A stretch of DNA of 64,000 nt, from NCBI RefSeq assembly GCF_030408855.1, contig NZ_CP047358.1, forward strand, positions 2,232,001 to 2,296,000, in the 5' to 3' direction. The DNA comes from Corynebacterium glaucum (GTDB lineage: Bacteria; Actinomycetota; Actinomycetes; Mycobacteriales; Mycobacteriaceae). Shown piece by piece: positions 1 through 59,327 of the stretch. The notes below the pieces were generated by a model, which saw only the letters and a list, made by a program, of their open reading frames with translations, was not told the origin of the DNA and did no database searches. Both the position numbers and the translations under genes were made by a program. The first letter of the stretch is position 1. Each line of letters starts with the position of its first letter.

Positions 1-899
1 CCGAAGATAGACGGCGGCGCCATCGTGCGGCGCGCCCGGGTCAGATCGCTCGGATTGTGCGCGGTCTCTGCGATGCCATCGGCAATCGCGCTCACCTGGT
101 CACCACCAAGCGCGTGCTCCTGCGCCGGCCCGCGCACCGCGCCGGTCGTGCGCGTCGGCAGCGCAAGCGGTTCCTCGGGACGCTGAACCTTCGGCGTGTT
201 CAGCGGCTCCTCGACCTCGGCCTCAACCGGAGCCACTACCAGCTTCGGCTCGGGCTCCGGCGCGTCCGGAATGTCGCGGGTGGGAAACGGCACCGCCAGC
301 GGCTGTGGGTTCGCGGGCGGGAGGGTCCGCGCGGCGTCGGCGAGCCTGGCCAGCGGCTCAAACGCGGCCTCCCACTCGCCCAGCTGCACGCCCTCGCCCA
401 CCTCCGCCAGCACCCACTCGCTCTCAAACCACACCGCAACCACAGTTGCGGGCAGGAGGTCGAGCGCATCGCGCACTCGCTTATCGACGAAGCGTTGCGC
501 CACCCCAGCGTCCGTCCCGAACACAGCGAAATCCCCGGCCTTCGCCACCTCAACGAGGTCTTCCGACGACGCCGCGTCGAAACCGTCGCGGCGCATGTCC
601 ACGACCACGTCGCTCACCGCGCCGGTGCTCATGGCGACCACCGTGGTCGGGCCAACATCGGCAACAACCGTCTCGTGTCCACCCCAGTTGCCAGTGGCCA
701 CGTTGGTTATGGCCGACCCGGTGGCTGCGGCGCCGCGTTGCCATTCGTCGACAAGCGATGTGTCCTGCTTGACGTAGCTGAAACCGTTCGCCTCGGCCCA
801 GGATTTGCGCCCGCGGTTAGGTGCCGACGAGTCGGACACCCACAGCCACACGCCGGCGATGAGCAGGACAATCGCCAGACAGATAAGTAAGTAAGCCAT
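1..899 (-). CDS. Partial membrane-anchored hypothetical protein (3' end outside window)
   Basis: I read this frame directly: from the ATG at 897-899 it stays open for 299 codons to the window edge, so the C-terminus is missing. The protein opens with a single hydrophobic helix (MAYLLICLAIVLLIAGVWLW, residues 1-20) with no lipobox, followed by a globular part beginning around GRKSWAEANGF and, from about residue 195, a Pro/Glu/Ala-rich stretch that looks unstructured. This suggests an N-terminally anchored protein. I do not recognise the family and assign no function. It lies downstream of the rhodanese-like gene on the same strand with a 64-base gap. Several long ORFs on the plus strand here are antisense shadows: they have no ribosome-binding site and low-complexity Arg/Ser-rich products. 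A GCTTATCGACG copy sits inside it at 479-489. Confidence 0.7.
   Translation of the reverse strand, partial: MAYLLICLAIVLLIAGVWLWVSDSSAPNRGRKSWAEANGFSYVKQDTSLVDEWQRGAAATGSAITNVATGNWGGHETVVADVGPTTVVAMSTGAVSDVVVDMRRDGFDAASSEDLVEVAKAGDFAVFGTDAGVAQRFVDKRVRDALDLLPATVVAVWFESEWVLAEVGEGVQLGEWEAAFEPLARLADAARTLPPANPQPLAVPFPTRDIPDAPEPEPKLVVAPVEAEVEEPLNTPKVQRPEEPLALPTRTTGAVRGPAQEHALGGDQVSAIADGIAETAHNPSDLTRARRTMAPPSIF
479..489 (+). repeat. Dispersed 11-mer GCTTATCGACG, copy 1
   Basis: Exact copy, antisense inside the partial membrane protein, where the coding strand reads it as Val-Asp-Lys. A GTCGAC-type variant lies at 746-756 in the same gene. Confidence 0.85.
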
Positions 900-963
900 C
901 AAGACGTGATGTTACTGCTCGGCGCGGCGTTTCCGCCGGTGGCACGGCCGAAAAGCGGCGTGG

Positions 964-1818
964 CTACATGTTGGTTGCGAGCGGGTTCTTCGGGTCCGCC
1001 GACCACTGCGACCAGCCGCCCACGAAGTGCGTGAGCACCGGCAGGCCCGCATGCGCCATCGCGGCGAGCATCAGCGAGGAGTGGTTACCGGAACCGGAGT
1101 AGACAATCGCGTCCTGCGGGTCGGTCTCAGAAGTGATGCCGAGGCCGGCGAAGATCTCGCGGATCGTGCCCGGGTCCTTCACCTTCACCTGATCGTGCTC
1201 GCCGTGCTTGATAAACAGCTCATCCACGGGCAGGTTCCGCGCGCTCGGGATGTGCCCGGCGCGCAGGTCGAAGACTTCGCGGCGGCCGTCGAAACGGTTC
1301 TTGGAGCGGGCGTCGATAAGCGTGCCCTCGAAAGCCTTGACTTCCTCGATGCTGGCGACGGGCATGTGCCCCTCCGACACCTCGACCTCGCGCGGCACGA
1401 CGACATTGCCGGGGCCGGCGACCGTGTCGAAGCCGTCGCCGTCCCAGTCGGCGAAGCCGCCGTCCAGGATGAACACGTCCTCAATGCCAGCCCAGCGCAG
1501 AATGAACCATGCGCGAGAGGCGAACAGGCCGTTGCCGCGGTCGTAGATGTAGGTCGGGCGGCCTGGCTCGATGCCCCACTCCTTGGTTGCCTTCGCCACA
1601 ACGTCAATGCTGGGCATTGGGTTGCGGCCTTCGTAGCGGCCCGGCATGCCAGCGAGCTGCGACGCGGGATCGCAAAACACCGCTGTCGGGATGTGCTCGG
1701 ATTGGAACTTCGACCAAGCTTTGCCATCGGTGCGCTCCCACAGGGCGGCGATGATGGTGTGCTTCTGGCCAGTCTTGATGCGTTCGTTCAGGGCTTCAGC
1801 GGAGACAAAGACGCTCAT
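964..1818 (-). CDS. Rhodanese-family (SseA/ThtR-like) protein lacking the catalytic cysteine
   Basis: The 284-residue product has the two-domain rhodanese layout of the 3-mercaptopyruvate/thiosulfate sulfurtransferases: CDC25-like motifs YDRGNGLFASRAWF and LDGGFADW in domain 1, a linker, then DARSKNRFDGRREVFDLRAGHIPSA and GGWSQWS in domain 2. The active-site loop that normally begins with the persulfide-forming Cys reads YSGSGNHSSL, with Ser at about residue 241; the only Cys in the protein is near residue 49. Conventional persulfide chemistry at that loop is therefore unlikely unless this subfamily works differently. I chose the ATG at 1818: an in-frame upstream start would run into the end of the preceding gene, while this start leaves a 20-base gap. 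In C. glutamicum thtR lies in the same neighbourhood as clpB. Confidence 0.85.
   Translation of the reverse strand: MSVFVSAEALNERIKTGQKHTIIAALWERTDGKAWSKFQSEHIPTAVFCDPASQLAGMPGRYEGRNPMPSIDVVAKATKEWGIEPGRPTYIYDRGNGLFASRAWFILRWAGIEDVFILDGGFADWDGDGFDTVAGPGNVVVPREVEVSEGHMPVASIEEVKAFEGTLIDARSKNRFDGRREVFDLRAGHIPSARNLPVDELFIKHGEHDQVKVKDPGTIREIFAGLGITSETDPQDAIVYSGSGNHSSLMLAAMAHAGLPVLTHFVGGWSQWSADPKNPLATNM
1311..1321 (-). repeat. Dispersed 11-mer GCTTATCGACG, copy 2
   Basis: Exact copy in sense orientation inside the rhodanese-like gene, encoding part of T-L-I-D-A. Confidence 0.85.
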
Positions 1819-1838
1819 GCGAGCCAGTCTAGCCGTGG

Positions 1839-2273: not shown

Positions 2274-2284
2274 GCTTATCGACG
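2274..2284 (+). repeat. Dispersed 11-mer GCTTATCGACG, copy 3 (intergenic)
   Basis: Exact copy in the 57-base gap between clpB and the DUF4265 gene, in the extended form TTTGCTTATCGACGGC. It is non-coding, so codon use cannot explain it. Confidence 0.9.
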
Positions 2285-2309: not shown

Positions 2310-4859
2310 TTACCTCGCGCTGACGTCGAGCATCTCGCCGCCGTCGGCTACGTCGACATGGACCTGGTCGCCGTCGCGGATGTCACCTGCGAGCAGCTTC
2401 TTTGCCAGCCGGTCGCCGATCGCTTGCTGGATCAAGCGGCGCAGCGGGCGTGCACCGTACGCCGGGTCATACCCGCGGTCGGCCAGCCAGGACTTGGCGG
2501 CATCCGAGACGTCGAGCGTGAGCCGGCGTGCGGAGAGGCGCTCTGCCAGACCCTCGAGCTGGATCTCCACGATGCCCACCAGCTGATCCTGGGTGAGCGG
2601 CTCGAAGACCACCACGTCGTCAAGACGGTTGATGAACTCCGGCTTGAAGTGGTGCTTCACGGCCTCCATGATCTGCTCGCGGTTGCCGCCCGCGCCCAGG
2701 TTGGACGTCAGGATGATCACCGTGTTGCGGAAGTCGACGGTGCGACCCTGGCCGTCGGTAAGCCGGCCTTCATCCAACACCTGAAGGAGCACGTCGAAGA
2801 CATCCGGGTGCGCCTTCTCGACTTCGTCGAAAAGCACGAGCGAATAGGGGCGGCGACGGACAGCTTCGGTGAGCTGGCCACCGGCATCGTAGCCGACATA
2901 TCCCGGAGGGGCGCCGACAAGGCGGGCGACGGAGTGCTTTTCGCCGTACTCGCTCATGTCGATGCGGACCATGGCGGACTCGTCGTCGAAGAGGAACTCC
3001 GCGAGCGCTTTCGCCAGCTCCGTCTTACCCACACCGGTCGGGCCGAGGAAGAGGAACGAACCGATCGGACGGTTGGGATCCGCGACCCCGGCGCGCGAAC
3101 GGCGCACCGCGTCAGACACAGCGACAACTGCTTCCTTCTGGCCAACGACGCGGCCCGCCAGCACCGACTCCATGTTGAGCAGCTTCTCGGTCTCGCCCTG
3201 CATCATCTTGCCGGCCGGAATGCCGGTCCACGAGGACACAACCTCCGCGATGACATCGGGCGTGACTTCCTCCTCCAGCATGGTCTTGGTGCTGGCCTGG
3301 CTTTCGGCAGCTGCGACCTCCGCCTCGAGCTCCGGGATGCGCCCGTAGCGCAGCTCGGAGACCTTGGCGTAGTCGCCTTCGCGCTCCGCGATCTCGGACT
3401 CGTTGCGCAGGCGTTCGAGTTCCTCCTTCGCGGACTGGACCTTGTTCACCTCGCCCTTCTCGTTCTCCCAGCGCGCCTTCATCTCGCCGAGCTTTTCACG
3501 CTGATCGGCGAGTTCCTGGCGCAGGTCGGACAGGCGCTGCTGCGAAGCCGCGTCGTTCTCCTTCGCCAAAGCGATCTCTTCGATCTCAAGGCGACGGACC
3601 ACGCGCTCAAGCTCGTCGATCTCCTGCGGGGAGGAGTCGATCTGCATGCGCAGGCGCGAGCCGGCCTCGTCGACCAAGTCGATCGCCTTGTCCGGCAGGA
3701 AGCGGTTAGTGATGTAGCGGTTGGACAGCTCGGCGGCAGCGACCAGGGCAGAGTCCTGGATGCGCACACCGTGGTGCACCTCGTAGCGCTCCTTCAAACC
3801 ACGCAGGATGCCGATCGTGTCCTCAACGGTCGGCTCACCCACGTAGACCTGCTGGAAGCGGCGCTCCAGCGCGGCGTCCTTCTCGATGTACTGGCGGTAT
3901 TCATCCAGCGTCGTCGCACCGACGAGGCGCAGCTCGCCGCGGGCCAGCATCGGCTTGATCATGTTGCCCGCGTCCATTGCTCCCTCGCCAGACGCGCCAG
4001 CGCCGACGATGGTGTGCAGCTCATCGATAAAGGTGATGATCTCGCCGTCCGAGGACTTGATCTCATCCAGCACCGCCTTGAGGCGCTCCTCGAACTCGCC
4101 GCGGAACTTCGCGCCTGCGACCATCGAGCCGAGGTCGAGCGAGATCAGCGTCTTGCCCTTCAAGCTCTCCGGCACGTCGCCGGCGACGATGCGGCGGGCG
4201 AGGCCCTCGACTACTGCAGTCTTACCGACGCCAGGCTCACCGATCAGCACCGGGTTGTTCTTCGTGCGGCGGGAAAGCACCTGCACGACGCGACGGATCT
4301 CGGCATCACGGCCAATCACCGGGTCGATCTTGCCCTCACGCGCGCGTGCAGTCAGGTCAGTGGAGTACTTCTCCAGCGCCTGGAACTGCTGCTCCGGGTC
4401 CTCGGAAGTGACCTTCTTCGAGCCACGCACGGACGGGAAGGCACCCTTGAGCACCTCGTAGGTGGCACCGCGCTTCTTCAGCAACTCGGCCGCCTCGTCT
4501 CCGCCCTTCGCAATGGCGGCGAGCAATACCTCGGTGGACACGAACTCGTCGCCGAGCTCGCCAGCCAGCTCCTGCGCTGCGTTGATCGCGTTGAGCGCAT
4601 CGCGGTTGAAATTCGGGTTCGCTAAATTCTGGCCCTCAGCCTTGGGGTATCCGTCCGTGATCTGCGCCGCCTCGCGGGCCACAGTGTCCGGATCGACGCC
4701 CGTGGCCTTCAACACGGGAGCGGCAATGCCCTCGTCCTGCGTCAAAATCGCCTCAAGCAGATGCGCTGGGCGGATGTCCGGGTTGCCGGCCGCCGACGCC
4801 TTCTGCAGCGCCTGCCGAATCGCCTCCTGCGTCTTGGTGGTGGGGTTAAAAGTTCCCAT
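2310..4859 (-). CDS. clpB: ATP-dependent disaggregase ClpB
   Basis: 849 residues, the usual ClpB length. In order: an N-terminal Clp repeat domain (about 1-145), AAA+ module 1 with Walker [10 protein letters not shown], a long coiled-coil middle domain (about 400-525; rich in Glu/Lys/Arg), AAA+ module 2 with Walker [10 protein letters not shown] and Walker [11 protein letters not shown], and a C-terminal D2-small domain. The protein threads aggregated polypeptides through a hexameric pore together with the DnaK system, encoded 8-12 kb away. The ATG at 4859 opens the canonical N-terminus [13 protein letters not shown]. Upstream are a candidate stress-sigma promoter and a HAIR-like repeat, consistent with the known HspR and SigH control of clpB in corynebacteria. 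Confidence 0.97.
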
Positions 4860-5180: not shown

Positions 5181-5851
5181 TCAGACAGGCCGTCGAGAAG
5201 CGTCCGGCTCCCGCGACTGGCGCGAAACCGGAACCCAACGCAGCACATACGCGACGCCGACCACCCCGACCGCGATCGTGAAGGCGGCCCACCCGAAACC
5301 GGTAGTGAAACCGGCGATGACCGCGATCGGCGCGAGGATGGTCATGCCGATCTCAAACGGCGCGAAACCGACGTAGGCCACGCCGTACTCATTGAGTGTG
5401 CCGGATTTCAGCTTCGGATCGACCATCTTCAGCAACGCGATACCGGTGGCCACAGCGGCGGTCGCCCAGCCCCAGCCGAAGATGCCGCGCTCGAGCCACT
5501 TCTCGCCGAAGAACGTCGGCGCCGCCCACAGCATCCATACGACACAGAACACGGTGCCCAGCACGAAGATGAGTACGAGCGCCTGCCAGTAGCCGGCAAG
5601 CGCGGCGGGGACGATGGAGGCGATGCCGAACGCGATCATGTAGTCGGTCGCCGCGCCCGCGATCGAGCCGACGGTGTCGCGGTCGAGGTAGTTCGGGCGG
5701 CGCAGCACGCGCAGCAGCATGCGTCCAATCAGCCCGATCACAAAGGCCATTTCTGCAGGATGAGCAGCCGGTTTCGCAACACGTTGCCGACAATCAGCAG
5801 GATAGACAGCCAGCCAATGTCGGTGAGCAGGGTATATGGCGTGAATTCCAC
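5181..5851 (-). pseudogene. gltS: Sodium/glutamate symporter (GltS-like) pseudogene
   Basis: Two pieces in different frames resemble the two ends of a GltS-type symporter. From a GTG at 5851, preceded by AAAGGTGGG, 37 codons encode an N-terminal helix (VEFTPYTLLTDIGWLSILLI...) and stop at 5738-5740. The other frame, readable from an ATG at 5750, encodes 189 residues of a multi-spanning C-terminal part (NYLDRDTVGSIAGAATDYMI, LNEYGVAYVGFAPFEIG). A full symporter of this type is about 400-450 residues, so roughly 200 internal residues are missing and the join is out of frame. A gltS-like gene next to clpB fits the C. glutamicum arrangement. A longer in-frame extension upstream is antisense to the next gene and not credible. 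Confidence 0.75.
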
Positions 5852-5955: not shown

Positions 5956-7065
5956 ATGAGTATCCCTGCCGCACTCATACAGAGACCGGGCCTGGTGCGG
6001 GCCGCGATGTATAGCCGTTTCATCGATGCATACGGGCAGCAGGGAGCCGCAATCTTGCCGGAAGGCACGCGGGAAGTGCCACAAACACTTGTCGACGCCG
6101 CCTTTTGGATCTTGTCCCATTCCCCCAACGCCAAACTGCGCCCCGGTGTGATCAAACGTGTGCGGGCATGGGCGCTGGATCTGCGCCGCGTGGGCTTTCC
6201 GTCCGCGGAATTCCCGGCGGTCGCGAACATGCTTGCCGACGCCTCCGCCGCCGATTCCCAGTCCCGCGAGATCCTCGTCGCCGTCGCCGAAACGATGCGC
6301 ACCGCGGTTGAAGAAGCTGACTTAGCCGGGATCCCAGCGGCATCCGCCGCGCAGATCACTGAGGTCGCTCCGGCAGGTGGGACGGACAGCGGGGTGACCA
6401 TCGTCCAATTGGAAGCCGGCATCCAGGTGGATTACGCTCCCGGCCAGGTCTTGCCAGTCATGCAGGTGGGTCGGCAGGGGGTGTGGCGCGGTTTGGCGCC
6501 GGCGCTGCCGTCGAATAGCTTTGGCCAACTCGAGTTCCATGTGGACGGTGAGATTGAACCCGAGGCCGGGACGTACCTGACGCTGGGTGCCGCGCGCGGC
6601 CCGAGCCCGGTGCTGGATTGTGAACAGGCGATGATTGCCGCGGTGGGCACCGGCTGGGCGGCGGCCAAAGCCATGCTTTTCGGCATATTGGAGCGTGAGA
6701 CCCGCCCGGATGTCCACCTGCTGATCGGTGCGGACACGACTGATGAGCTCTACGATCTGCGCACCATCGGCGCGCTGAACCAGGCACATGACTGGCTGAC
6801 CGTCACCTGCGCCGTGACAGACGGCGAGGACGCCGGCCCCGCACAGGAGGCGGGGCTGAACCACGTGTGGGCGCCGCTGTCTGCCTTTCTCGCCGGTGCG
6901 GGCACGTGGTGGGGCCGCGAGGTGGTGCTGTGCGGGACGAAGGCGCGTACCGATGAGCTGGTGCGTTCGCTGCACGCGGCGGGTGCCGAGAGGGCACAGA
7001 ACGGGATTACCGTCGTTGCGCACGACGCGCAGTTCGACTGGACTACCCCGCCCGACGAGGGCTAG
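5956..7065 (+). CDS. Flavohaemoprotein-like oxidoreductase (globin-like N-terminus plus FAD/NAD-binding part)
   Basis: 369 residues, soluble. Residues 1-140 are helical and resemble a divergent globin domain. From about residue 145 the chain looks like a ferredoxin-reductase-type FAD-binding barrel (VDYAPGQVLPVMQV ... LPSNSFGQLEFHV) followed by an NAD(P)-binding Rossmann part (MIAAVGTGWAAAKAMLFGIL). The usual RxYS flavin motif is replaced by WRGLAPALPSN, so cofactor binding may differ. The nearest known enzymes are the Hmp nitric-oxide dioxygenases, but this protein is too divergent to claim that activity. It is divergent from the gltS remnant, with an ATG at 5956. Confidence 0.55.
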   Translation: MSIPAALIQRPGLVRAAMYSRFIDAYGQQGAAILPEGTREVPQTLVDAAFWILSHSPNAKLRPGVIKRVRAWALDLRRVGFPSAEFPAVANMLADASAADSQSREILVAVAETMRTAVEEADLAGIPAASAAQITEVAPAGGTDSGVTIVQLEAGIQVDYAPGQVLPVMQVGRQGVWRGLAPALPSNSFGQLEFHVDGEIEPEAGTYLTLGAARGPSPVLDCEQAMIAAVGTGWAAAKAMLFGILERETRPDVHLLIGADTTDELYDLRTIGALNQAHDWLTVTCAVTDGEDAGPAQEAGLNHVWAPLSAFLAGAGTWWGREVVLCGTKARTDELVRSLHAAGAERAQNGITVVAHDAQFDWTTPPDEG

Positions 7066-7114: not shown

Positions 7115-7958
7115 CCGTGTTTTCGGTGATCGCGACCACCGGCAGCGCCTTGCGGGCCGCGGCGACTTCACTCAGATCGATGTCCACGATGAGCGTCTCT
7201 GGCGCGTAGCCAGCTTCGGCGATACGCACACCCTGCGGGTTGACCACTACGGAGTGGCCAATGCCGGTCGGGCCGGACTCCTCCCCCGCTCTCTCCTCCC
7301 AATCGGGCCGGGCTTGTCCGGTCGCTGCGATGAACACGCCCGCATCCAATGCACGCGCCGCGTTTAGCGCCCGCCACTGCTCGAGCTTGCCCGGCCCATC
7401 AGCCCAGCTCGTGGGCACCACGATGACCTCAGCGCCGCGTCGCGCAAGCTCCTTGAACTGCTCCGGGAAGCGGATGTCAAAGCAGATCGCCATGCCGACC
7501 ACCACACTCTCGCCGTCCGCTTCGTGCACGAACGTGACCAGCTCCTCACCGGTTCTCACCGTGTCAGATTCGCGGTAATCAAACGCGTCGTACGCGTGAA
7601 TCTTGTCGTAGCCCGTGTGCGTCCCGCCGCCGGTCACCAGCGCGGTGTTGCGCACCCGGTTCACCGTCTTTCGCTCACCGTTGCTCTCGAGCACGTTGGT
7701 GTCGGCGGGGCGGAACATGCCCGCGACCACGGTTACCCCGAGCTCGTCGGCAAGCGTGCGCATCGCCGTCGAGAACTCCCCGTCGAGTTCTTCCGCCTGC
7801 GTGTCTAGTCTGCCCTGGTCAAAGGCCTGACTTGTGGCCTCTGGCAGCACGATCAGGCTGGCACCCGCGGCCGCTGCGTCGCGGATCAGCGGCTCGACGC
7901 GCGCAAAATTCTCGCTCTTATCGGCGCCGGTGATCACTTGCAATAAGGCAATCCTCAT
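7104..7958 (-). CDS. Carbon-nitrogen hydrolase (nitrilase superfamily amidase)
   Basis: 284 residues with the Glu-Lys-Cys catalytic triad of the nitrilase fold: Glu40 in IVLPEATSQ, Lys119 in GYDKIHAYD and Cys159 in GMAICFDIRFPE. These cytosolic enzymes hydrolyse amides through a thioester intermediate; the family includes omega-amidases and deaminated-glutathione amidases, and the substrate cannot be read from sequence. The ATG at 7958 lies inside one of a pair of inverted DnaA-box sequences shared with the divergent operon, so both promoters lie in an 80-base region. The 3' end carries a triplicated stop-codon unit. Confidence 0.88.
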   Translation of the reverse strand: MRIALLQVITGADKSENFARVEPLIRDAAAAGASLIVLPEATSQAFDQGRLDTQAEELDGEFSTAMRTLADELGVTVVAGMFRPADTNVLESNGERKTVNRVRNTALVTGGGTHTGYDKIHAYDAFDYRESDTVRTGEELVTFVHEADGESVVVGMAICFDIRFPEQFKELARRGAEVIVVPTSWADGPGKLEQWRALNAARALDAGVFIAATGQARPDWEERAGEESGPTGIGHSVVVNPQGVRIAEAGYAPETLIVDIDLSEVAAARKALPVVAITENTVMR

Positions 7959-8038: not shown

Positions 8039-8329
8039 ATGGTTGTCGGCATGAACTTTCTCGCCCTTTCCGACACCACTGCCCCCACCGCCCGCGCACA
8101 CCTCCCCGACACCTCCACCCTCCCTACAGCACAGCTTTCCCCATCGCTCGCAGCCACAGCCCTCGCCGCAGTGCAGCACAAGGAGCATTTGCTTATCGAC
8201 GGCACACTGCGCCGCCTAACCAACCACCTCGACTCCATCGCCACTTTTGCCCAGACAGCCGCCGACATCGACACTGCTCTTGACACTGCACTCGACACTG
8301 CCCTCGCGAGGTCGCTGCGCAATGGCTAG
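8039..8329 (+). CDS. Small helical protein, partner of the DUF1023 hydrolase
   Basis: 96 residues if the ATG at 8039 is used, 92 from the ATG at 8051 (MNFLALSDTT). There is no signal peptide. The protein is Ala/Thr-rich with a predicted helical C-terminal half that ends in a threefold repeat DTALDTALDTALA, encoded by a 12-bp DNA repeat at about 8272-8307. Its stop overlaps the start of the next gene by 8 bases, implying translational coupling. The size and pairing with a DUF1023 protein that has its own helical N-terminus recall WXG100/Esx-type partners, but no WXG motif is present. Function unknown. Confidence 0.6.
   Translation: MVVGMNFLALSDTTAPTARAHLPDTSTLPTAQLSPSLAATALAAVQHKEHLLIDGTLRRLTNHLDSIATFAQTAADIDTALDTALDTALARSLRNG
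8191..8201 (+). repeat. Dispersed 11-mer GCTTATCGACG, copy 4
   Basis: Exact copy in sense orientation in the small gene before the DUF1023 hydrolase, in the long context AGCATTTGCTTATCGACGGC. Confidence 0.85.
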
Positions 8330-9515
8330 CCCTGCGACCCTTCCTACATACGCGCCCCGCCTCGACCCCAATGAGTTGCGCGCGGCTGCGTCCCTCGTGT
8401 CGAGCGCAGGGGCGACCGTATCGGCCCGCGCACGCGCCACGCGTGAGGCGGCTACTGCTATCAGTGCGACCGGGTTCGCAGGCCCCGCTCCCGATCTTGC
8501 GCTTGTTCGGCTGGCCGATTTCTCAACTGAGCTGGATGGCCACGCGCAGAGTTTGCGCCGCATCGCTGAGCTGCTCATCTGGGCCGCCCGTGCACAATCG
8601 GCGCTGGATGCCGCCGCCCACGCCGCCCAGGCGGCTGGCCATTACCGGATCATCGTCTGGCTCAACGCACTGTCGATGCAGCTTGATACGGAGCTTGCCC
8701 GCGAGATCAACCGCACCCGCGGCGCAGGGTTCGACGCGTTGGTGAACCACCCGGACACCGCGGTCCACGAGCTCCACGCGCACCACATGTCCACCCTGCC
8801 TGCGAGCACACAAGCGGTGATCGACGCTGCAGGCGGCATAGTGCTTGAGGCTGGTCCCAGCGGGAGCACAGTCCTTGTCGGTGACTCCATCGACCCGGCG
8901 CGCGTGATCACCATGGTCGCTGGCGCAACGACAGGCCACCCCGACTCCCTCGGCCACGAACTGCAGAAGGCACAGTTGATCGCCCAACGCACCGGGGCGA
9001 CGGTGGTTGTGTGGCAGGGTTACCAGCCGCCAAAGACACTGCCGCGGGCGCTGTCGCCGGCGTCGGCAAGCGAAGGCGCAGTAAACCTCGCGATGTTCCA
9101 GGCCGCGCTGGAGGAACGCTACCCCGATGCCCAGAAAACCGTGGTCGCCCACTCCTACGGAACGGTAGTGGCCACTCGTGCGGCACAGCGCAGCGGTCTT
9201 CTCGCAGACGAGTTGTGGCTGCTCGGCAGCCCGGGCGTGTACGGAGAATCCGTCAATGACCTCACCCTTGCTGGGCCAGATTCTCAAGTATTTGTGGTCG
9301 ACGCTGATCGAGACCCCATTCTGGCCCTCCGACGAGGAAATCAAGGTGTGCTCGGGGGGTCGTCGCCAAGCACTGCGAGCTATGGCGCAACTGTTGTGGA
9401 GGGGGTAACGGGCGACCATTCCTCGTATTTCACAGACGAGGCATTCCTGACTGCTCTGTCACAGCCACCGGGGTCCAAGCTGCAGAAATCGGTAGGCTCG
9501 ACGGTCGAGCGGTGA
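8322..9515 (+). CDS. Alpha/beta hydrolase of the DUF1023 family
   Basis: 397 residues from the ATG at 8322 (MASPATLPTYAPR). Residues 1-150 form a helical region with repeated Ala/Arg heptads; the C-terminal part is a DUF1023 alpha/beta-hydrolase with the nucleophile motif VVAHSYGTV (Ser278), an oxyanion-side GYQPPKTLP segment, an acid in VVDADRDPI and a likely catalytic His in GDHSSYF. DUF1023 proteins are common in actinobacteria and often carry or neighbour helical Esx-like modules; substrates are unknown. The start overlaps the upstream small gene by 8 bases. Longer upstream in-frame starts fall inside that gene and are unlikely. Confidence 0.8.
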   Translation: MASPATLPTYAPRLDPNELRAAASLVSSAGATVSARARATREAATAISATGFAGPAPDLALVRLADFSTELDGHAQSLRRIAELLIWAARAQSALDAAAHAAQAAGHYRIIVWLNALSMQLDTELAREINRTRGAGFDALVNHPDTAVHELHAHHMSTLPASTQAVIDAAGGIVLEAGPSGSTVLVGDSIDPARVITMVAGATTGHPDSLGHELQKAQLIAQRTGATVVVWQGYQPPKTLPRALSPASASEGAVNLAMFQAALEERYPDAQKTVVAHSYGTVVATRAAQRSGLLADELWLLGSPGVYGESVNDLTLAGPDSQVFVVDADRDPILALRRGNQGVLGGSSPSTASYGATVVEGVTGDHSSYFTDEAFLTALSQPPGSKLQKSVGSTVER

Positions 9516-16192: not shown

Positions 16193-16203
16193 CGTCGATA
16201 AGC
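16193..16203 (-). repeat. Dispersed 11-mer GCTTATCGACG, copy 5 (intergenic)
   Basis: Exact copy 10 bases past the ald stop, in the context AGCTTTTCGCTTATCGACGC on the minus strand. It is non-coding. Confidence 0.9.
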
Positions 16204-44713: not shown

Positions 44714-44758
44714 GGGAAACACCTTTCGTCGTCAAGCGAAACTGCCTTGACCCCCACG

Positions 44759-46038: not shown

Positions 46039-46236
46039 GTGTTCTCCTTATGGAATTCGCACTTCCGGTGCGCAGGTTTGCAAGTCACCGGCCGATCTTC
46101 TCCCGGGGGCACCGTGCGCGAATCGCGCGGTTGCCAGTCGACGTGCCGGGAGGCATTCGTCGAACTTCTGGATCGTGGAAGCGAGAATAACAGACCGCTT
46201 GGTCTAGCGCAACCGTCGTCAAGCAAAATGCTCTGT

Positions 46237-50850: not shown

Positions 50851-53820
50851 ATGCGCACACACTGGCTCGGGTGGCTGGCGCTGACCCTGCTCGCGTTGTT
50901 GCAACCCCCGGGCCAGATCGCCGCTGACACCAAGTTCGACCTCACCGCCAACCCAGCGGGGTTTTTGCGCAATGCGCTGCACATCTACACCGACGAGTTT
51001 CCGCTCGGCCAGGTGCAGAACCAGGCCTACGGCTACCTCTTCCCCCAGGGCCCGTTTTTCCTGCTGGCGGACTGGCTGCACGTCCCCGATTGGGTGGCGC
51101 AGCGTGTTTGGTGGGCGTTGCTTTTATCCATTGCGTACTCCGGCACGCTGGTCCTGGCCCGACGCATCGGAATCACCGCGACGCTGCCGGCTGTCACCGC
51201 CGCGGTGCTCTACGCACTGTCGCCGCGCATCTTGACCACGCTCACCGCGATCTCCTCAGAGGCGTGGCCGGTGGCGCTGGTGCCGTGGACACTGGTGCCG
51301 TTGCTGGGCAAGCGCCCGAACGTGGCGGCGGCGGTGGTGCCGGTCGCACTGATGGGCGGGGTGAACGCCTCCGCCACTATCGCGGCGTGCGTGCCGGCCG
51401 CGGTGTACCTGCTTGCGCGGGGGAAGTTCAGGAATCTTTCGTGGTTCACCGTCGGAGCAATAGCCGTCTCCGCGTGGTGGATCGGGCCGCTTATCATGCT
51501 CGGCACGTACTCTTCGCCGTTTTTGGATTACATCGAGTCCGCCACGGTCACCACGGCCTGGCTCAATCCCGTGGAGATCCTGCGCGGCACCACCAGCTGG
51601 GCACCGTTCGTGGAAACGGAGCGCCGCGCGGGGTTCCTGCTCGTGGCCGAGCCGACCTTCATTATCGCCACCTGCCTCGTCGCCGCGCTCGGATTGGCTG
51701 GACTTGCTAAGGCCGACTTCCCCCAGCGCCGCGCCTTCGTATCCATCTTCGCGGTCGGGTTCGCGCTGCTGGCCAGCGCGCATTTCCTGATCCCGGAGTA
51801 CGACACCCTTCTCGCACCGTTTCGCAACCTGCACAAGTTCGATCCTCTGGTGCGTCTGCCGCTGGTGCTCGGAGTGGGGTGGCTGCTGGCAAGTATGAGC
51901 AGAGATTCAGTCAAGCACGCTGCGCCGAAAACCACCGCCGCCATTCTCGCTGCCACCATTGCCGTCGCCCCCGCATGGTCGCTGCGGCTTCTACCCCAGG
52001 GCACCTGGGATGAAGTCAGCGAAGACTGGGTCGCTGTCGGCGAGTGGCTGGATGAGCACGCCGCTGGGACCCGCACCCTTGTCGTCCCGGCTGCCCCGTT
52101 CGCCCGTCAGGAGTGGGGGTGGACCCGAGATGAGCCGATTCAGGCACTCACCAATTCTCGCTTCGTCTTCCGTGACGCGATCCCGCTGGTGAATCCGGAG
52201 GCGATTCGGGGTCTGGATGGGCAGGTGGCAGTCGTCGATAAGCAAGCCCTGCTTTCGATCGGAGTGGGTGCAGTCGTGGTACGCCGCGACCTCGAGCACC
52301 AAACTCCCACGCCGAGCTTGGGCAAGCCGACCGCAAGCTTCGGTGATGTCGACATCTTCATGCTGGACGCTAGCCGCGACATGATGATCACTGCCGACGA
52401 ACCGCTGCGTGCCCAGGTCGGCGGCGAGGGATTGCCTCTATTGTGGCGCGAGCTGGGTTACTTCCCGGTGATGCTGGACCGCGGCGGTGAGAACCCGCGC
52501 CACACAATCGTCACCGATACCCCGGCGCTGGCCAACCGGAACTACGGCAATGGTGCGCAGTCTGCCCACCTGGCCACACCCGATGAGGACAAGAGCGTGC
52601 ACAACGCGGTGAAGGACTACGTGTCGCAGAGCCGGCGCACCAAGGTGCACATGCAGGGCGAGGCGCGTGCGTCCTCCTCCGCTGCCGACGCAGGCACGTT
52701 CCGCACCGATGCATCGAAATCGCTCACCGCCGCGTTCGACGGCCTCGAGGACACCGCATGGTGGCCCGCGCCCGGCGACACGGACGCCTATATCGAGTTC
52801 GCGCCGGAAACCGACGCCTTCTCCATCACCGCCACCGCGAACACCGAGGTCATCATCTCCGGCGACGGTCCGGATCGCACCGTCTCGCTCGTCGGCGGGC
52901 AGCCGCGCACACTCGCCACCAACGGCGCGCGCCGCATCACGCTCACCGAACCCGTCGGCATCACTGAGATCGACGCCGGCATCTCCCGCATTGTGGATGT
53001 CGATCGCCCCGGCGACGCCTATTTCTTCCAGCGCATCTTCCCCGCCACCGAGGTGCTGCAGCGCCGCTTCGTCACCGACGTCGACGCCGAATGGACGCTC
53101 TCCGCCCCGGCGCGCATCGACGGCCGCGACGTCGAGGGCACCGTCTCCCTCCCCGCCGGCCACCACGAACTGGTCACCACCGCCGAGACCATCATGCTCA
53201 CCCACGGCCCACTCGACCTGCCCAGCTGGGAACCGTTCGCCGGGCAGGCACAACCAGCCGACACCGACCGGATCATCCTCACCACCCGCGCGTTCAATCA
53301 AGGTTTGCGGGCAAGTGTCGGCGGCACGGAGCTCGAGCCTTTGCTTATCGACGCCGGCGCCCAGGCGTTTCGCCTCCCCGCCGGAGCCAGCGGCGAGTTC
53401 ACCATGTGGCACGAAGGAGACCAGCTGTACCGCCGCACCCTCTTCTTCGGTGGCGCGTTGTCGCTGCTCGCGTTGGCTGCGTGTGTGATGCTGCCGCGAC
53501 GCCGACAGGAGCGCCACGAAACCCCCACATCAACATTCGCCGTTCTGCCGCTGCTCGCAGTGCTGGTTGCGAATCCGGTGCTCGGGGCCGCCGCTGTTGT
53601 ACTCGTCTGGGCCGTGCGCCGCTTCACGCTGATTCCGAGTACGTGGCTCGCCGGCGGCGCGATGACGTTCGCAGGGCTGTGGCTGGCCCGCGCTCCGTGG
53701 CCGAACCCGAACTACGCAGGCGATACGTGGTTGCTCGCGCTCGCCGGCTGCCTCGCGGTGGCGTGCCTTGCCTTCCCAGAGAGCACCAACCGAGCCCCCG
53801 GAACCTCCACCAATTCGTAA
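50851..53820 (+). CDS. aftD: Arabinofuranosyltransferase AftD
   Basis: 989 residues. The N-terminus has the AftD signature (PGQIAADTKFDLTANPAGFL, then QNQAYGYLFPQGPFF) followed by about ten membrane helices to residue 375, a long external region (about 380-855) with carbohydrate-binding-like beta domains, and C-terminal helices from about 865. It adds arabinofuranose from decaprenyl-phospho-arabinose to arabinogalactan/lipoarabinomannan at the outer face of the membrane. Shorter than the roughly 1400-residue mycobacterial enzyme, as expected for corynebacteria. It follows DUF2613 with no gap and its 3' end overlaps the convergent acyltransferase gene by 109 bases. Confidence 0.94.
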   Translation: MRTHWLGWLALTLLALLQPPGQIAADTKFDLTANPAGFLRNALHIYTDEFPLGQVQNQAYGYLFPQGPFFLLADWLHVPDWVAQRVWWALLLSIAYSGTLVLARRIGITATLPAVTAAVLYALSPRILTTLTAISSEAWPVALVPWTLVPLLGKRPNVAAAVVPVALMGGVNASATIAACVPAAVYLLARGKFRNLSWFTVGAIAVSAWWIGPLIMLGTYSSPFLDYIESATVTTAWLNPVEILRGTTSWAPFVETERRAGFLLVAEPTFIIATCLVAALGLAGLAKADFPQRRAFVSIFAVGFALLASAHFLIPEYDTLLAPFRNLHKFDPLVRLPLVLGVGWLLASMSRDSVKHAAPKTTAAILAATIAVAPAWSLRLLPQGTWDEVSEDWVAVGEWLDEHAAGTRTLVVPAAPFARQEWGWTRDEPIQALTNSRFVFRDAIPLVNPEAIRGLDGQVAVVDKQALLSIGVGAVVVRRDLEHQTPTPSLGKPTASFGDVDIFMLDASRDMMITADEPLRAQVGGEGLPLLWRELGYFPVMLDRGGENPRHTIVTDTPALANRNYGNGAQSAHLATPDEDKSVHNAVKDYVSQSRRTKVHMQGEARASSSAADAGTFRTDASKSLTAAFDGLEDTAWWPAPGDTDAYIEFAPETDAFSITATANTEVIISGDGPDRTVSLVGGQPRTLATNGARRITLTEPVGITEIDAGISRIVDVDRPGDAYFFQRIFPATEVLQRRFVTDVDAEWTLSAPARIDGRDVEGTVSLPAGHHELVTTAETIMLTHGPLDLPSWEPFAGQAQPADTDRIILTTRAFNQGLRASVGGTELEPLLIDAGAQAFRLPAGASGEFTMWHEGDQLYRRTLFFGGALSLLALAACVMLPRRRQERHETPTSTFAVLPLLAVLVANPVLGAAAVVLVWAVRRFTLIPSTWLAGGAMTFAGLWLARAPWPNPNYAGDTWLLALAGCLAVACLAFPESTNRAPGTSTNS
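52233..52243 (-). repeat. Dispersed 11-mer GCTTATCGACG, copy 12
   Basis: Exact copy, antisense in aftD, read as V-V-D-K-Q. Confidence 0.85.
53343..53353 (+). repeat. Dispersed 11-mer GCTTATCGACG, copy 13
   Basis: Exact copy in sense orientation in aftD, read as L-L-I-D-A, in the context CCTTTGCTTATCGACGCC. Confidence 0.85.
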
Positions 53821-54764
53821 GAGACGTAGCCGACCGCCGAAGTTACCACGGCTGTGAAAACCCAAATTGGGATAAAGGGGGCGTCGAAAAGCGAAAGCCC
53901 CAAGACTGGAAACGCGAAGTGGAGCACGGACATATGCCACAAGAAAATGGAGTAGGACCAGCGGCCGAGGGTGATCATGGGACGCGAGGAGAGGAGCGTG
54001 CCGCTGGAGCGCGGGCCGAGGGCGAACGGCGCGACGAAGCACGCGGCGAAGATGGTGCCGCAGATGACGCGGGCGTTGAATTCGTGCGGGGTGGGATGGA
54101 TCAAACCAGGCGGGCCGATGAGGCCGGCGAGCCAGGCAACGACTAATCCGCACAGCGGGAACGGCCAGCGTGGGCCGGAATAGCGAACCTTGAGCCGTTC
54201 AAGTTCGGCGAGGACCAACCCAACTGCGAACCAGGGGGCAAACGACGGCGGCCAGATCTGGAGGTTGAGGATGGCGGGGTCGTAAAACGGCCGGACGAAC
54301 CACGGCCAGCACAAACCGAGCGGGACCGCCGCCATGATCACAGCCCAACGGCCGCGCTGCCCGAGCCTTAAATACAGCGGCAGGACCAGGTAAAACGCGA
54401 CTTCGACGCAGAGCGACCAGATGTGGGTGAGGCCGTCGATGAGCCCGCCCGGCACGTAGATCTGCACCATCGCGAGGTTGGCAGCGGCTTGGCTTGCTGT
54501 GACCGTGCTCAGCGACGGCAGCGTCACTAGCACCACAGCGACGCAGACCAGGTACGCGGGCGCGATGCGGGCGACTCGACGGCGGTAATAGCCCGGGCGC
54601 TGGCCGCCGCGTGCGAGGAGGAACGCGGAGAGGGCATAGAAAACGGGTACGAAGAAATCGAAGCGCTCCAAAAACCGCGAGCCGGTGCCGGCCTGAAACG
54701 CGACGTGCGTGGTCAGGATCCCAAACGCCGCGACGGCGCGCAGCCCGTCCAGCTCAGGGAGCAC
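53712..54764 (-). CDS. Membrane acyltransferase 3 family protein (TmaT-like)
   Basis: 350 residues from a GTG at 54764 (xLPELDGLRAVAAFGILTTH), the acyltransferase-3 (OafA/YrhL) signature with catalytic His in TTHVAF; about ten membrane helices. In C. glutamicum TmaT, a protein of this family, acetylates trehalose monocorynomycolate for export, and the M. tuberculosis counterpart (Rv0228) lies in this same conserved neighbourhood. That makes TmaT the best candidate, but other envelope O-acetyltransferases of this family cannot be excluded. It overlaps aftD by 109 bases tail-to-tail. A motif variant lies at 53882-53892. Confidence 0.8.
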   Translation of the reverse strand: MLPELDGLRAVAAFGILTTHVAFQAGTGSRFLERFDFFVPVFYALSAFLLARGGQRPGYYRRRVARIAPAYLVCVAVVLVTLPSLSTVTASQAAANLAMVQIYVPGGLIDGLTHIWSLCVEVAFYLVLPLYLRLGQRGRWAVIMAAVPLGLCWPWFVRPFYDPAILNLQIWPPSFAPWFAVGLVLAELERLKVRYSGPRWPFPLCGLVVAWLAGLIGPPGLIHPTPHEFNARVICGTIFAACFVAPFALGPRSSGTLLSSRPMITLGRWSYSIFLWHMSVLHFAFPVLGLSLFDAPFIPIWVFTAVVTSAVGYVSYELVEVPGARLVLSGKARHATARQPASASNHVSPA

Positions 54765-54800: not shown

Positions 54801-56216
54801 GTGGTCAGTATACGAGCCGTTGTGGGCGTAGACGCAGGGCTCAAGGCCTATGGCGCGCTGCTCGTGCTGGCTGTTACCTGGCCGTTTCTGGTCCCGGCGG
54901 GCGTTGGCGAGGCGTTCGCGCTGCGCGACATGCTGGTGTTTGACCAGATGGCGCTCACGCGGGCGTCGTTAGGCTACGGCGATCTGGCCGCCCGCAACGT
55001 CCCGCAGGACGCGCTGCTCGGGATCGTGCCGTGGCCGATGCTCGCGCTGCGCATGATCATGGTTGGCGCAGCTATCGCCGCGGCCGTGAGCGCGTATCGG
55101 CTCAGCCGCTCTTCTCTGGGCAAAGCAGCCGCGATGACGGTGCTGCTGTGGAACCCGTTCGTTATCGAGCGCCTGCTTCAAGGCCACTGGTCGCTCGTCG
55201 CCGCCGCCTGGCTGCTGCCCGCGGTCGCGTTCGCGCCGCCCGCCCAAGCCACGTTGGCGCACTGGCTCGCCTCGCTCACACCCACCGGCGCGATCGCCGC
55301 CGCCACCTTTGCGCGCGGGTGGCGCGGCATACTCACGACGGCGCTGACCTGCGCACCATGGGTGGTTGCGGGCCTATTAACCCCGGCCTCCGCCACCTCG
55401 AGCGCCGCCTCTGCCGCCCTGTTCGCGCCCCGCGCGGAGACATTCGTGGGCACCCTCGGCGCGCTGCTCGGCCTCGGCGGGATCTGGAACGCAGACGCCG
55501 TGCCGGAGTCGCGCAACCTCGGTTTCGCTCTGTTCGGCATCGGACTCTTCGCCATCTTGGCACTCGGCTGGCGCGCCGTGAACACCCGCTGGCTTGTGCT
55601 CGCCGGCATCGGCTTTGCCATCGCGCTCGCGTCGTGGGCGGGCCTGCTCGCCCCCCTCATCGAGACCGTCCCCGGCGCCGGCCTGCTTCGCGACTCCCAA
55701 AAGTGGCTCATCCTCACCCTCCCCGCCTGCACCGCCGCCGCCGGCGCGCTCACCCCAAAACTCGCTGGCACTGCGCTGTTAATGGCGCTCCTCCAGGTCC
55801 CTGACGCACCGCTCGCGCTGCGCGCCCTCACCCCCACCGCCATCGAGTTCCCCGCCATTGATCACCGCGGCCGGGACGTCTTCTTCGTCGATCGCCCAGC
55901 GCTGATTGACATCGGCGGCAGAGTGGTCGTCGACCCCGCCCCCAAAGCCATGAACGCGGTCGAATCGGGGCTTTTGCTTGTCGACGGCACCGTTGCCGAT
56001 CCTCCCTCGCCCCGGTGGCTCGCGGCGCAGCGGGCGCAAAACGATCTCGAAGCACTCAAATCCTTGGGCATTGGAGTGGTGGTGTACCCGGATGGAGATC
56101 TTCTAGAAACCGGTGCCGAACAACGGGGTTTACCACCCCTCGGCATCGCGCTTTTCGCCCTCTGGTGCGCCGCCCCGCTTTTTGGTGTGACGAGGATCAC
56201 TCTTAGGAAATATTAA
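54801..56216 (+). CDS. Conserved polytopic membrane protein (Rv0226c-like)
   Basis: 471 residues from a GTG at 54801 (xVSIRAVVGVDAGLKAYGAL); another GTG seven codons on is possible. Ten or so hydrophobic segments up to about residue 375, then a periplasmic-facing segment and a last helix near the end. It resembles the M. tuberculosis Rv0226c type in order and character; I see no catalytic motif. The 36-base gap to the divergent TmaT-like start must hold both promoters. A motif variant (GCTTGTCGACG) is at 55976-55986. An envelope role is inferred from context. Confidence 0.78.
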   Translation: MVSIRAVVGVDAGLKAYGALLVLAVTWPFLVPAGVGEAFALRDMLVFDQMALTRASLGYGDLAARNVPQDALLGIVPWPMLALRMIMVGAAIAAAVSAYRLSRSSLGKAAAMTVLLWNPFVIERLLQGHWSLVAAAWLLPAVAFAPPAQATLAHWLASLTPTGAIAAATFARGWRGILTTALTCAPWVVAGLLTPASATSSAASAALFAPRAETFVGTLGALLGLGGIWNADAVPESRNLGFALFGIGLFAILALGWRAVNTRWLVLAGIGFAIALASWAGLLAPLIETVPGAGLLRDSQKWLILTLPACTAAAGALTPKLAGTALLMALLQVPDAPLALRALTPTAIEFPAIDHRGRDVFFVDRPALIDIGGRVVVDPAPKAMNAVESGLLLVDGTVADPPSPRWLAAQRAQNDLEALKSLGIGVVVYPDGDLLETGAEQRGLPPLGIALFALWCAAPLFGVTRITLRKY

Positions 56217-57084: not shown

Positions 57085-57540
57085 ATGTTGTTGGCTGAAG
57101 CGCTCGCGCGCCGTTCTGAAGCGCAGGACCGGCTGAACAAGCTGCAGGGCCGACTCAACGCAGTCGCGCGCGTCCAGGAAGGGGATACCCCGTCAGAAGA
57201 CCCCCAAGCATTGCTCAGAGAAGCCGAACAACTCCTCGAAGAGATCGAAATCTTGGTTCGCCGGATCAACCACACCAACGCGAACACTCCATTCGACGAA
57301 GGCATGACGCTTACCGACGCCATCGCCCGACGCGACGGTCTTTTGCGTGCGCGACGGATATACACCTCCGTTGCCGATGCCGCCGCCATCCGCGGCGATC
57401 GCTACAACCGCAGCGAGATCAAGTTCGTGTCCACGCTTAATGTCGGGGAGCTGCGCCGCAACGCCGATCAGATGAGCAAGGATTTCCGCGCGTTGGATAT
57501 GAAGATCCAGCAGCTCAACTGGACCACCGAGCTGCTTTAA
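57085..57540 (+). CDS. DIP1984 family protein
   Basis: 151 residues: helical coiled coil (RRSEAQDRLNKLQGRLNAVA, LLREAEQLLEEIEILVRRIN) followed by the family pattern NTPFDEGMTLTDAIARRDGL and QLNWTTELL at the end. The family is named after a C. diphtheriae protein and has no established function. A very strong ribosome-binding site (AAGGAGG) precedes the ATG at 57085. Its end overlaps the convergent glycosyltransferase gene by 26 bases. Confidence 0.9.
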   Translation: MLLAEALARRSEAQDRLNKLQGRLNAVARVQEGDTPSEDPQALLREAEQLLEEIEILVRRINHTNANTPFDEGMTLTDAIARRDGLLRARRIYTSVADAAAIRGDRYNRSEIKFVSTLNVGELRRNADQMSKDFRALDMKIQQLNWTTELL

Positions 57541-58579
57541 GCACGCTCAAGACCTTCCGGCCGGTCGCTTCCCAGGAGAACTGCGCAGCAAACGCGCGCG
57601 CCGCGTCTGCCATGTCAGCGCCAAGCGTCTCGCACACCACGGCCGTGAAGTCCTCGTCAGCGCGCACCAGCCTGCCGGTCTCGCCGTCCCGGATCGACTC
57701 GTTCACCCCGCCGGCATCAGCAAACCCCACGGTAGGCACCCCGTGCTGAGCCGCCTCAATTACCGCGATCCCCCAGCCCTCCTTCGCCGACGGCAAGAGG
57801 TGCACGCGGGCGCGTTCGAGCAGCGCGTGCTTGTGCGCCTCTGAGACATGCCCGTGGAAGACCACTTTGTCGGACGGGTACCGCGCCGCGTACTCGCGCA
57901 GGTTGTCCTCCCACCAGCCGGACCCCACCACATCCAGCACCGCGCCGTCGATCTGCGCCGCGGCATCGATAGCCAACTCTATCCGCTTGTGCGGAACGAG
58001 TCGGGACAAGGTGATGAGGTGGACACGTCCGTCGTCGTGAAGCAATGGCCCGTCAAGTGGCACCTCGTCGACTCCATTTTCCACGATTTCAATGTCGCGC
58101 CCGCGCACGCCCAGCGCAACCAGGTCGCGCTTCGAGGCCTGCGAGACCGTCACGTACTGGGCGCCTCGGTACACGCGCGGCGCGACCCGCGATTCCAGGA
58201 ACCAGCCCAACCGCCCGATGATCGGGCCTGCCACCGGCCACTGCTCGCGGTGGCAGTGGTGCGTAAGCAGCACCACCGGCCGGCGTGTGAAGAGCCTCGC
58301 AAAGAACGGGATGCCGTTTTGCGTATCCACGATAATGTCTGGCCGGTTGCGCCAGATCGACAGCGGCGCCAGCACGTACACCCCGTACTTCCCGCCGCCG
58401 CGCTCGTAGCGCACCCCGTTTCGCCGCGAGCGCCGCGGCGCATCCGTGTGCTTCGCCGACCGGAAAATTACCTCGTGGCCCTCACGCGCCAGGTACTCGC
58501 CGACGCGCTCGAGGTAGCGCTCTGAGCCACCGCCTTGCGGGTGGGTGGTGTCGCGCCAGCACATCAGCAGTATCTTCAT
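57515..58579 (-). CDS. Glycosyltransferase family 4 (Rv0225-like)
   Basis: 354 residues from the ATG at 58579 (MKILLMCWRDTTHPQGGGSE). GT-B fold: an N-terminal acceptor domain with the GGGSERYLE loop, and a C-terminal donor domain with LSRLVPHKRIELAIDA, SAKEGWGIAVIEAAQHGVP and the E-x7-E motif that binds nucleotide-sugar. Retaining mechanism expected; acceptor unknown, envelope glycan or glycolipid likely from its neighbours. Its ATG lies only 4 bases from the divergent methyltransferase ATG. Upstream in-frame starts would lie in that gene. Confidence 0.9.
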   Translation of the reverse strand: MKILLMCWRDTTHPQGGGSERYLERVGEYLAREGHEVIFRSAKHTDAPRRSRRNGVRYERGGGKYGVYVLAPLSIWRNRPDIIVDTQNGIPFFARLFTRRPVVLLTHHCHREQWPVAGPIIGRLGWFLESRVAPRVYRGAQYVTVSQASKRDLVALGVRGRDIEIVENGVDEVPLDGPLLHDDGRVHLITLSRLVPHKRIELAIDAAAQIDGAVLDVVGSGWWEDNLREYAARYPSDKVVFHGHVSEAHKHALLERARVHLLPSAKEGWGIAVIEAAQHGVPTVGFADAGGVNESIRDGETGRLVRADEDFTAVVCETLGADMADAARAFAAQFSWEATGRKVLSVLKAARWSS

Positions 58580-58583
58580 CGCT

Positions 58584-59327
58584 ATGTACCGTACCCGTCG
58601 CCTTGCCACGCTTCGCCGTTCGCTGCGCTTGCTCCGCTCGTTCGGCTACGAGCAGTTCCGGCCGCGCATTTTTTACGAAGGTTTGGCGCGGGACACACAT
58701 TTGCTTATCGACGCCCTGTTGCGCGACCTTACCGGCACCCCTCTCCGCGGCCGCAGCGTGCTCGATGTCGGTGGCGGCCCCGGGTATTTCGCCGAAGCAT
58801 TCGCAGACACTGCCTATATCGGCCTCGAGCCCGACGTGTCCGAGATGTCCGCGGCCGGCATCACCGGCTACGGCGCGGTGCGCGGCGACGCTCGTGCGCT
58901 GCCGTTCGCCGACAGTGCCTTCGATATCGTGTATTCCTCAAACGTCGCGGAGCACATCCCTGGCTGGGAGCAGATGGGCGACGAAATGCTGCGCGTGGCC
59001 AAGCCCGGTGGGTTGATTGTCCTGAGCTACACCGTCTGGCTTGGGCCGTTCGGCGGGCACGAGACTGGGGTGCTCCCCCACTACATTGGCGGTAATTTCG
59101 CCCGCCGCCGCTACGAGCGCATTCACGGCCACCCGCCGAAGAACGTCTTCGGCGAATCGCTGTTCAACGTCTCGGCGACAGAAGGTCTGCGATGGGCAGA
59201 GTCAACCGGCCAGCTCGCCTTCGCGTTCCCGCGCTACCACCCGCACTGGGCGTGGTGGCTCACTCGCGTACCTGTTCTCCGCGAGTTCGCTGTCTCCAAC
59301 CTCGTGTTAGTGCTGGTCAAGCACTAG
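58584..59327 (+). CDS. SAM-dependent methyltransferase (Rv0224c-like)
   Basis: 247 residues from the ATG at 58584 ([20 protein letters not shown]). Class I methyltransferase motifs: [16 protein letters not shown] (SAM-binding loop), [10 protein letters not shown], and [17 protein letters not shown] basic N-terminus and a hydrophobic C-terminus suggest association with membrane lipid. In M. tuberculosis this gene also lies divergent to the glycosyltransferase Rv0225, implying a shared envelope substrate. The gene ends overlapping the pckA stop by 4 bases. Confidence 0.88.
58703..58713 (+). repeat. Dispersed 11-mer GCTTATCGACG, copy 14
   Basis: Exact copy in sense orientation in the methyltransferase gene, read as L-L-I-D-A, in the context ACATTTGCTTATCGACGCC. 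A further variant, GCTTAGCGACG, is at 61638-61648 in trmB. Confidence 0.85.

Follow-up and report, generated by a model that had tools for sequence, protein, structure and literature searches.

To our knowledge, DNA uptake words that accumulate in the genomes of their own carriers have hitherto been known only from two bacterial families, the Neisseriaceae and the Pasteurellaceae. In the former, the available text of Frye et al. (PMC3630211) describes eight dialects of the DNA uptake sequence (DUS) as barriers to transformation. Accumulation of the uptake signal sequence (USS) is attributed, in the sections available of Bakkali (PMC1939737), to uptake bias together with mutation in unconstrained DNA. 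Excerpts of a survey of spaced motifs (PMC5217627) report terminator-type inverted pairs and an intergenic excess in H. influenzae, both unlike the word described below, and for three Corynebacterium genomes give CRISPR patterns only. Among the actinobacteria, the accessible part of a study of Micrococcus luteus (PMC6667448) counts tadA1, tadA2 and comEA among the genes of competence. The present analysis concerns an 11-bp word, GCTTATCGACG, dispersed through a 64,000-bp stretch of the Corynebacterium glaucum chromosome (positions 2,232,001-2,296,000 of a genome of one contig, 2,529,320 bp; hereafter the window), which is probably an uptake sequence of this kind.

Neither an earlier uptake sequence from Corynebacterium or Actinobacteria nor natural competence in Corynebacterium was found to be reported among the matches listed in the open-access literature, preprints excluded. 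An uptake sequence in Corynebacterium would, as far as we know, be the first in the Actinobacteria.

Abundance, form and constraint of the word

A preliminary description of the window had given 14 exact copies of GCTTATCGACG, all of which were recovered at the same coordinates and on the same strands (7 plus, 7 minus), and its near-zero chance expectation was upheld by dinucleotide shuffles of the window (mean 0.02, maximum 1). The wider GCTT-NN-CGACG family that it proposed exists as well, although it had been undercounted: 50 GCTTNNCGACG sites (20 plus, 30 minus) are present against 1.5 expected and a maximum of 5 over 100 shuffles. Every listed variant beginning with GCTTGT, GCTTTT or GCTTGA was found again, as were the two near misses, GCTTAGCGACG at 61638 and GCCTATCGACG at 46887, whereas the longer shared context survived only in part, AGCATTTT-core-G being a partial consensus at most.

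Across the C. glaucum genome the exact word occurs 508 times (245 + 263) and its reversed-word control once (0 + 1); for GCTTNNCGAYG the corresponding figures are 1,606 and 131. Modelling, codon and spacing work was carried out on a sample of 464 kb, made up of the window and 20 stretches of 20 kb (18% of the genome). The possibility that the count merely matches a Markov expectation falls away, because the sample holds 100 exact copies versus 1.09 under a fourth-order model of the same DNA, an enrichment of about 90-fold. Single substitutions in this sample were found in excess at the fifth base (G 34, C 21 and T 18 copies), at the sixth (A 10, C 6, G 4) and, for T to G, at the third (10 copies); the fourth base yielded 2, 6 and 2 copies against 0.2, 2.9 and 2.0 expected, and each substitution at the other seven core positions just 0-1 copies. 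The core is therefore GCTT-NN-CGACG with AT favoured in the gap, and it is not a palindrome. Conserved flanks surround it, with T at -3 to -1, G nearly absent at -1, C at +12 to +15, T at +16/+17 and a weak A at +20. Codon periodicity accounts for part of the downstream signal; analysed by class (273 of 274 sites, one being too close to a stretch end), positions -3 to -1, +12, +13, +15, +17 and +22 persist at the 126 sites that are not in the main sense frame, and the 36 intergenic sites show the complete pattern.

Simple gene calls cover 86% of the sample, and as they are crude, the division of the 100 exact copies into 48 sense, 34 antisense and 18 intergenic is approximate. Shuffling of synonymous codons within genes (20 shuffles) yielded only 1.5 sense and 0.55 antisense exact copies, and 8.75 and 11.3 of GCTTNNCGACG, for which 164 sense and 74 antisense sites were observed. 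The claim that the constraint acts on the DNA was thus borne out, as was the placement of copies both within and between genes, those at 2274 and 16193 falling outside called genes and others lying sense or antisense. The CTT and TTG codons that it forces had been called rare; they are less used (12.5% and 12.1% of leucine codons) without being rare.

The strands carry GCTTNNCGAYG almost equally genome-wide (795:811). With leading and lagging strands set by GC skew, whose sign reverses from the 1.20-Mb stretch to the 1.32-Mb one (a later stretch, L019, being slightly positive again), the 274 sampled sites fall 138 to 136 when summed over stretches. A polar signal of the Chi or KOPS type, against which the 7:7 split had already been held, is rejected on this absence of orientation bias. 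The sites are slightly evenly spaced at 0.5-2 kb, the ratio of variance to mean of their counts being 0.90, 0.87, 0.88 and 1.00 for intervals of 0.5, 1, 2 and 4 kb, and short gaps are scarce (29 of 253 under 300 bp versus 44.8 expected). Site density follows local GC content, from 0.86/kb above 65% through 0.56 at 60-65% and 0.32 at 55-60% to a single site in three intervals below 55%, a gradient that would follow if acquired DNA contained few copies of the word. Inspection by eye also showed a type VII secretion-like locus, with WXG100-like small proteins and large ATPase-like proteins, in the stretch at 240,001-260,000, which is word-poor (5 sites/20 kb).

Distribution and dialects

Between 0 and 782 exact copies of GCTTATCGACG were counted in each of 242 Corynebacterium genomes. 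A threefold or greater excess of GCTTNNCGAYG over the reversed control was seen in 189 of these genomes (hand count), and 53 remained under 3-fold, G156 and G226 barely so. Dispersed words of this kind number from several hundred to roughly two thousand in many chromosomes of the genus. The survey of the family comprised 151 genomes; in the 140 of these that belong to 30 other genera, no excess of 3-fold or more was seen. Enrichment is confined to Corynebacterium among the 31 genera, and the strong signal is therefore a property of this genus. The top ratio elsewhere was about 2.7 (G338, 449 vs 168), most lying near 1; G338 and other genomes of its genus (g5) exceed the control mildly, perhaps through composition.

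CGACG is the form of the word in most carriers, and CGATG dominates in 14 of the 242 genomes, each with at least 490 copies of GCTTNNCGATG (G001, G004, G024, G027, G096, G101, G106, G128, G143, G144, G151, G164, G175 and G209). CGACG-type sites, taken as GCTTNNCGAYG counts minus CGATG counts, number at most 97 in 13 of these; the remaining one, G024, is mixed, with 1,337 CGATG and 352 CGACG sites. A weak, mostly CGATG signal was found in G028 (159/222), G032 (223/291), G156 (213/277) and G185 (211/284), and the remaining genomes hold 12-165 CGATG sites each. Further departures include G056, which prefers GCTT(TA/GA)CGACG, and G012 (2.03 Mb), which is without the common word and instead carries 644 copies (315 + 329) of CGCGRCGTCAT, for example in stretches L069-L072, against a control of 6; this word does not exceed 42 copies in the 57 other genomes of the 58 searched for it. 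In samples of G012, G106, G001 and G056, each genome's own word exceeded the means of 30 synonymous shuffles in both sense and antisense. A FastTree phylogeny of TadB-TadF from 35 genomes, which is a midpoint-rooted tree of pilus genes and not of core genomes, placed the CGACG genomes G105 and G222 as sister to a CGATG clade with full support; since they sit among CGATG lineages, the dialect changed at least twice.

Two side observations may be added. TCGACGCCAC is in excess in genomes that lack the common word and match TadA less strongly, with 13, 9 and 3 copies per 80-kb sample in G142 (L055-L058), G230 (L077-L080) and G007 (L027-L030), and T-rich bases precede it in G142 and G230; it may be a further dialect or something unrelated. 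In G131, about 52 copies of a single repeat in the sampled 80 kb (L035-L038) are probably a CRISPR array.

Competence genes and the reading of the word

TadA, the T2SSF proteins, Flp and ComEC were named by family matches, whereas CpaE, TadE, TadF and ComEA are taken by us to be such from gene order, length and resemblance. The tad locus of C. glaucum occupies roughly 178.6-182.9 kb of the chromosome, and comEA-comEC are found near 1.934-1.936 Mb. Matches to ComEC, T2SSF and Flp (DUF4244) were obtained in 241, 233 and 238 of the 242 Corynebacterium genomes, respectively, and a ComEA-like match in 22 of the 24 genomes searched. An impression gained from weak T2SSF hits, that word-free species are without tad, was overturned by the Flp search and by that for TadA. 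The latter, run on 55 mostly word-free genomes, returned a weaker match in 33 (44-52% identity, E 1e-87 to 1e-75) and none in G168, G189, G198 and G203, the others matching more strongly.

Because copy number, strand symmetry, DNA-level constraint, sharpness and the existence of dialects match the class known from the Neisseriaceae and Pasteurellaceae, the word is probably the DNA uptake sequence, similar to DUS or USS, of a Tad/ComEA/ComEC competence system in Corynebacterium. The preliminary description had left three options, namely a DNA-uptake-like word, a nucleoid or chromosome-organising site and a restriction or methylation target; the first fits best with the balanced strands, the roughly 90-fold enrichment, the few tolerated substitutions, the dialects and competence genes throughout the genus. 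The word is abundant, lies on both strands and comes with machinery genes, and in the sequence tests applied it resembles a DUS, terminator pairs and an intergenic excess apart; strict membership of the class rests on uptake itself.

A surface receptor, either a Tad-pilus subunit or ComEA, would prefer double-stranded DNA carrying GCTT-NN-CGACG, and binding would be strongest where the gap is AT, the bases immediately upstream are T-rich and those downstream are rich in C and T. The Tad pilus would draw this DNA across the mycomembrane, ComEA and ComEC would bring it inside, and recombination would swap it for the resident allele. As alleles with the word would be imported more often, it would accumulate on either strand wherever coding constraint permits, in a form of molecular drive, and a shift in receptor specificity would let the genome drift to a new dialect. 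On balance we also favour the fuller proposal of a genus-wide system, in which a Tad pilus, ComEA and ComEC would read a nine-base split word through the mycomembrane, with at least three species-isolating dialects and a receptor unrelated to ComP.

Several observations weigh against an uptake sequence. The tad and comEC genes are near-universal, word-free species included, so that their presence neither discriminates carriers nor proves use, and as a discriminator it was rejected. G128 and G185 keep many CGATG-type sites with no ComEA found, the query matching only a second protein of about 780 residues that also occurs in the other searched genomes; G185 is also without a ComEC match and that of G128 is weaker, which may possibly reflect recent competence loss or assembly gaps. 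The site reduction in G185 (90% complete; 284 sites, control 74) alongside its missing ComEC and ComEA is a hint at most. G171, with 679 exact copies, gave no T2SSF or Flp match and has its TadA at a contig edge, and G198 and G168, with more than 1,400 GCTTNNCGAYG sites, gave neither a T2SSF nor a TadA match; in all three the missing parts are perhaps assembly gaps. Terminator-type inverted pairs, which are common among uptake sequences although they do not define the class, were not seen; of 253 gaps, just two separate sites on opposite strands by no more than 80 bp (35 and 69 bp between starts). An intergenic excess is not clear (36 of 274 sites, with 14% non-coding DNA), the even spacing is gone at the 4-kb scale (variance/mean 1.00), and composition by itself may explain the low density at low GC.

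Comparison with a second C. glaucum strain, G061, over 106,689 aligned bp (2.0% divergence) left 60 of 63 sites intact, with changes at 3/567 fixed-core bases, 81/4,278 flanking bases and 23/1,629 bases of shuffled-word controls; it is underpowered and to that extent counts against the same reading, though its direction fits maintenance. The alignment also revealed an IS256-family transposase-like element (L001:3036-4481) that G061 lacks at the corresponding position; two sampled stretches of G061 hold copies at 86% identity.

The search for a receptor has likewise given no clean answer. Flp, TadE and TadF were compared in 35 genomes (16 CGACG, 11 CGATG, 8 word-free) and ComEA in 47 (21 CGACG, 13 CGATG, 3 weak CGATG and 10 word-free; G128, G185 and G022, the last having no ComEA in the stretch used, were left out), and no alignment column of the four proteins splits the dialects cleanly, a further point against an uptake system. 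ComEA columns that had seemed diagnostic in 21 genomes failed once G024 and G096 joined. The residue after the ComEA hairpin is V in 13/13 CGATG and 8/21 CGACG genomes, a pattern confounded by descent; these eight hold 127-159 CGATG-type sites and the other 13 hold 26-101. This residue may be the best lead to the receptor, common descent explaining the pattern equally well.

Of the competing explanations, a chromosome-organising or nucleoid site survives best, though we regard it as unlikely. A Corynebacterium-specific cytoplasmic DNA-binding protein would bind the word at intervals of roughly 1.5 kb and so give the chromosome its structure, and the dialects would track changes in that protein. 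The chromosome-wide, strand-neutral and at 0.5-2 kb slightly even distribution, the extended conserved flanks and the confinement to one genus all suit such a site. An essential organiser, however, should not be lost or exchanged time and again between species as this word has been; nine fixed bases are unusually sharp for nucleoid proteins, and no such protein has been identified, no search for one having been made.

It is very doubtful that the word is a recombination signal of the Chi kind, recognised by AdnAB or by some other helicase-nuclease that resects DNA ends. Kilobase spacing over the whole chromosome agrees with such a signal, and Chi words also vary among taxa, but the 138:136 division shows no leading/lagging bias, the enrichment exceeds the level associated with Chi, and sister clades carry different words.

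Hardly any credence can be given to a restriction or methylation target, or to a repeat without assigned role such as cyanobacterial HIP1, itself a very abundant word of unknown role. HIP1 is a palindrome and the present word is not, and the dialects diverge at a position that is invariant otherwise; a restriction target in particular is disfavoured because such targets tend towards avoidance and not enrichment. Lastly, codon or protein bias and chance are dismissed by the window shuffles, the Markov model and the synonymous shuffles together with the 34 antisense and 18 intergenic copies, the Leu-Ile-Asp frame that had been offered as an alternative holding 44 of the 100 exact copies only.

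Should the word indeed be an uptake sequence, Corynebacterium would be, or until recently have been, naturally competent across the genus, uptake words would have evolved independently in a further phylum, and word counts would predict gene flow between species. Comparison of the dialects over the 242 genomes offers a ready route to the receptor.

Sites in the window and comparison with known systems

The positions that follow are window coordinates, and their sense, antisense or outside labels rest on the crude gene calls. On the plus strand, exact copies of GCTTATCGACG lie antisense in called genes at 479..489, 25773..25783 and 27611..27621, outside called genes at 2274..2284 and 8191..8201, and in sense at 53343..53353 and 58703..58713. 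Those on the minus strand are in sense at 1311..1321 and 49395..49405, outside called genes at 16193..16203 and antisense at 32732..32742, 35375..35385, 38869..38879 and 52233..52243.

Among the variants, GCTTGTCGACG is found in sense at 746..756, 24901..24911 and 28736..28746 (minus) and at 35293..35303 and 55976..55986 (plus), and antisense at 13375..13385 (plus). GCTTTTCGACG is in sense at 2825..2835, 49902..49912 and 53882..53892 (minus) and at 33222..33232 and 47419..47429 (plus), and antisense at 21763..21773 (plus), while GCTTGCCGACG is in sense at 6231..6241, 39936..39946 and 47536..47546 (plus) and at 7745..7755 and 27473..27483 (minus), and antisense at 9061..9071 (minus). GCTTGACGACG falls on the minus strand outside called genes at 19364..19374 and 44727..44737, in sense at 43176..43186 and 50463..50473 and antisense at 46214..46224, and on the plus strand antisense at 40546..40556. 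Less frequent are GCTTCACGACG, in sense at 11617..11627 and 58033..58043 (minus) and antisense at 41024..41034 (plus); GCTTACCGACG, in sense at 2753..2763 (minus) and 57309..57319 (plus); and GCTTAGCGACG, antisense at 40263..40273 (minus) and in sense at 61638..61648 (plus). Single minus-strand sites are provided by GCTTCTCGACG at 5191..5201 (outside called genes), GCTTGGCGACG at 9361..9371 (antisense), and GCTTAACGACG at 24319..24329, GCTTTACGACG at 26702..26712 and GCTTCGCGACG at 60340..60350 (all sense).

Like Chi, KOPS and HIP1, the Corynebacterium word is short and over-represented chromosome-wide; Chi and KOPS are polar, and it is neither polar nor palindromic. Its likeness to the DUS is closer. 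In the available text on the Neisseriaceae (PMC3630211), the DUS is a word of about 10 bases with thousands of copies, dialects between relatives and a conserved inner core. The Corynebacterium word belongs to another phylum, is a different word and has a free dinucleotide interrupting its core; inverted pairs that would form terminators were not seen, and where the Neisseriaceae use the minor pilin ComP as receptor, the genes found here are those of Tad and ComEA/ComEC. With the USS it shares a short sharp core within a longer weak motif, which spans 29 bp in H. influenzae; the excess of the USS declines gradually with mismatches, according to the same available sections (PMC1939737), whereas that of the Corynebacterium word is concentrated at three core positions, and the terminator pairs of the Pasteurellaceae were not seen for it. 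M. luteus is closest in phylum and in its machinery genes, tadA and comEA; the accessible part of the source mentions no uptake word (PMC6667448), and competence has been shown there, whereas for Corynebacterium it is proposed.

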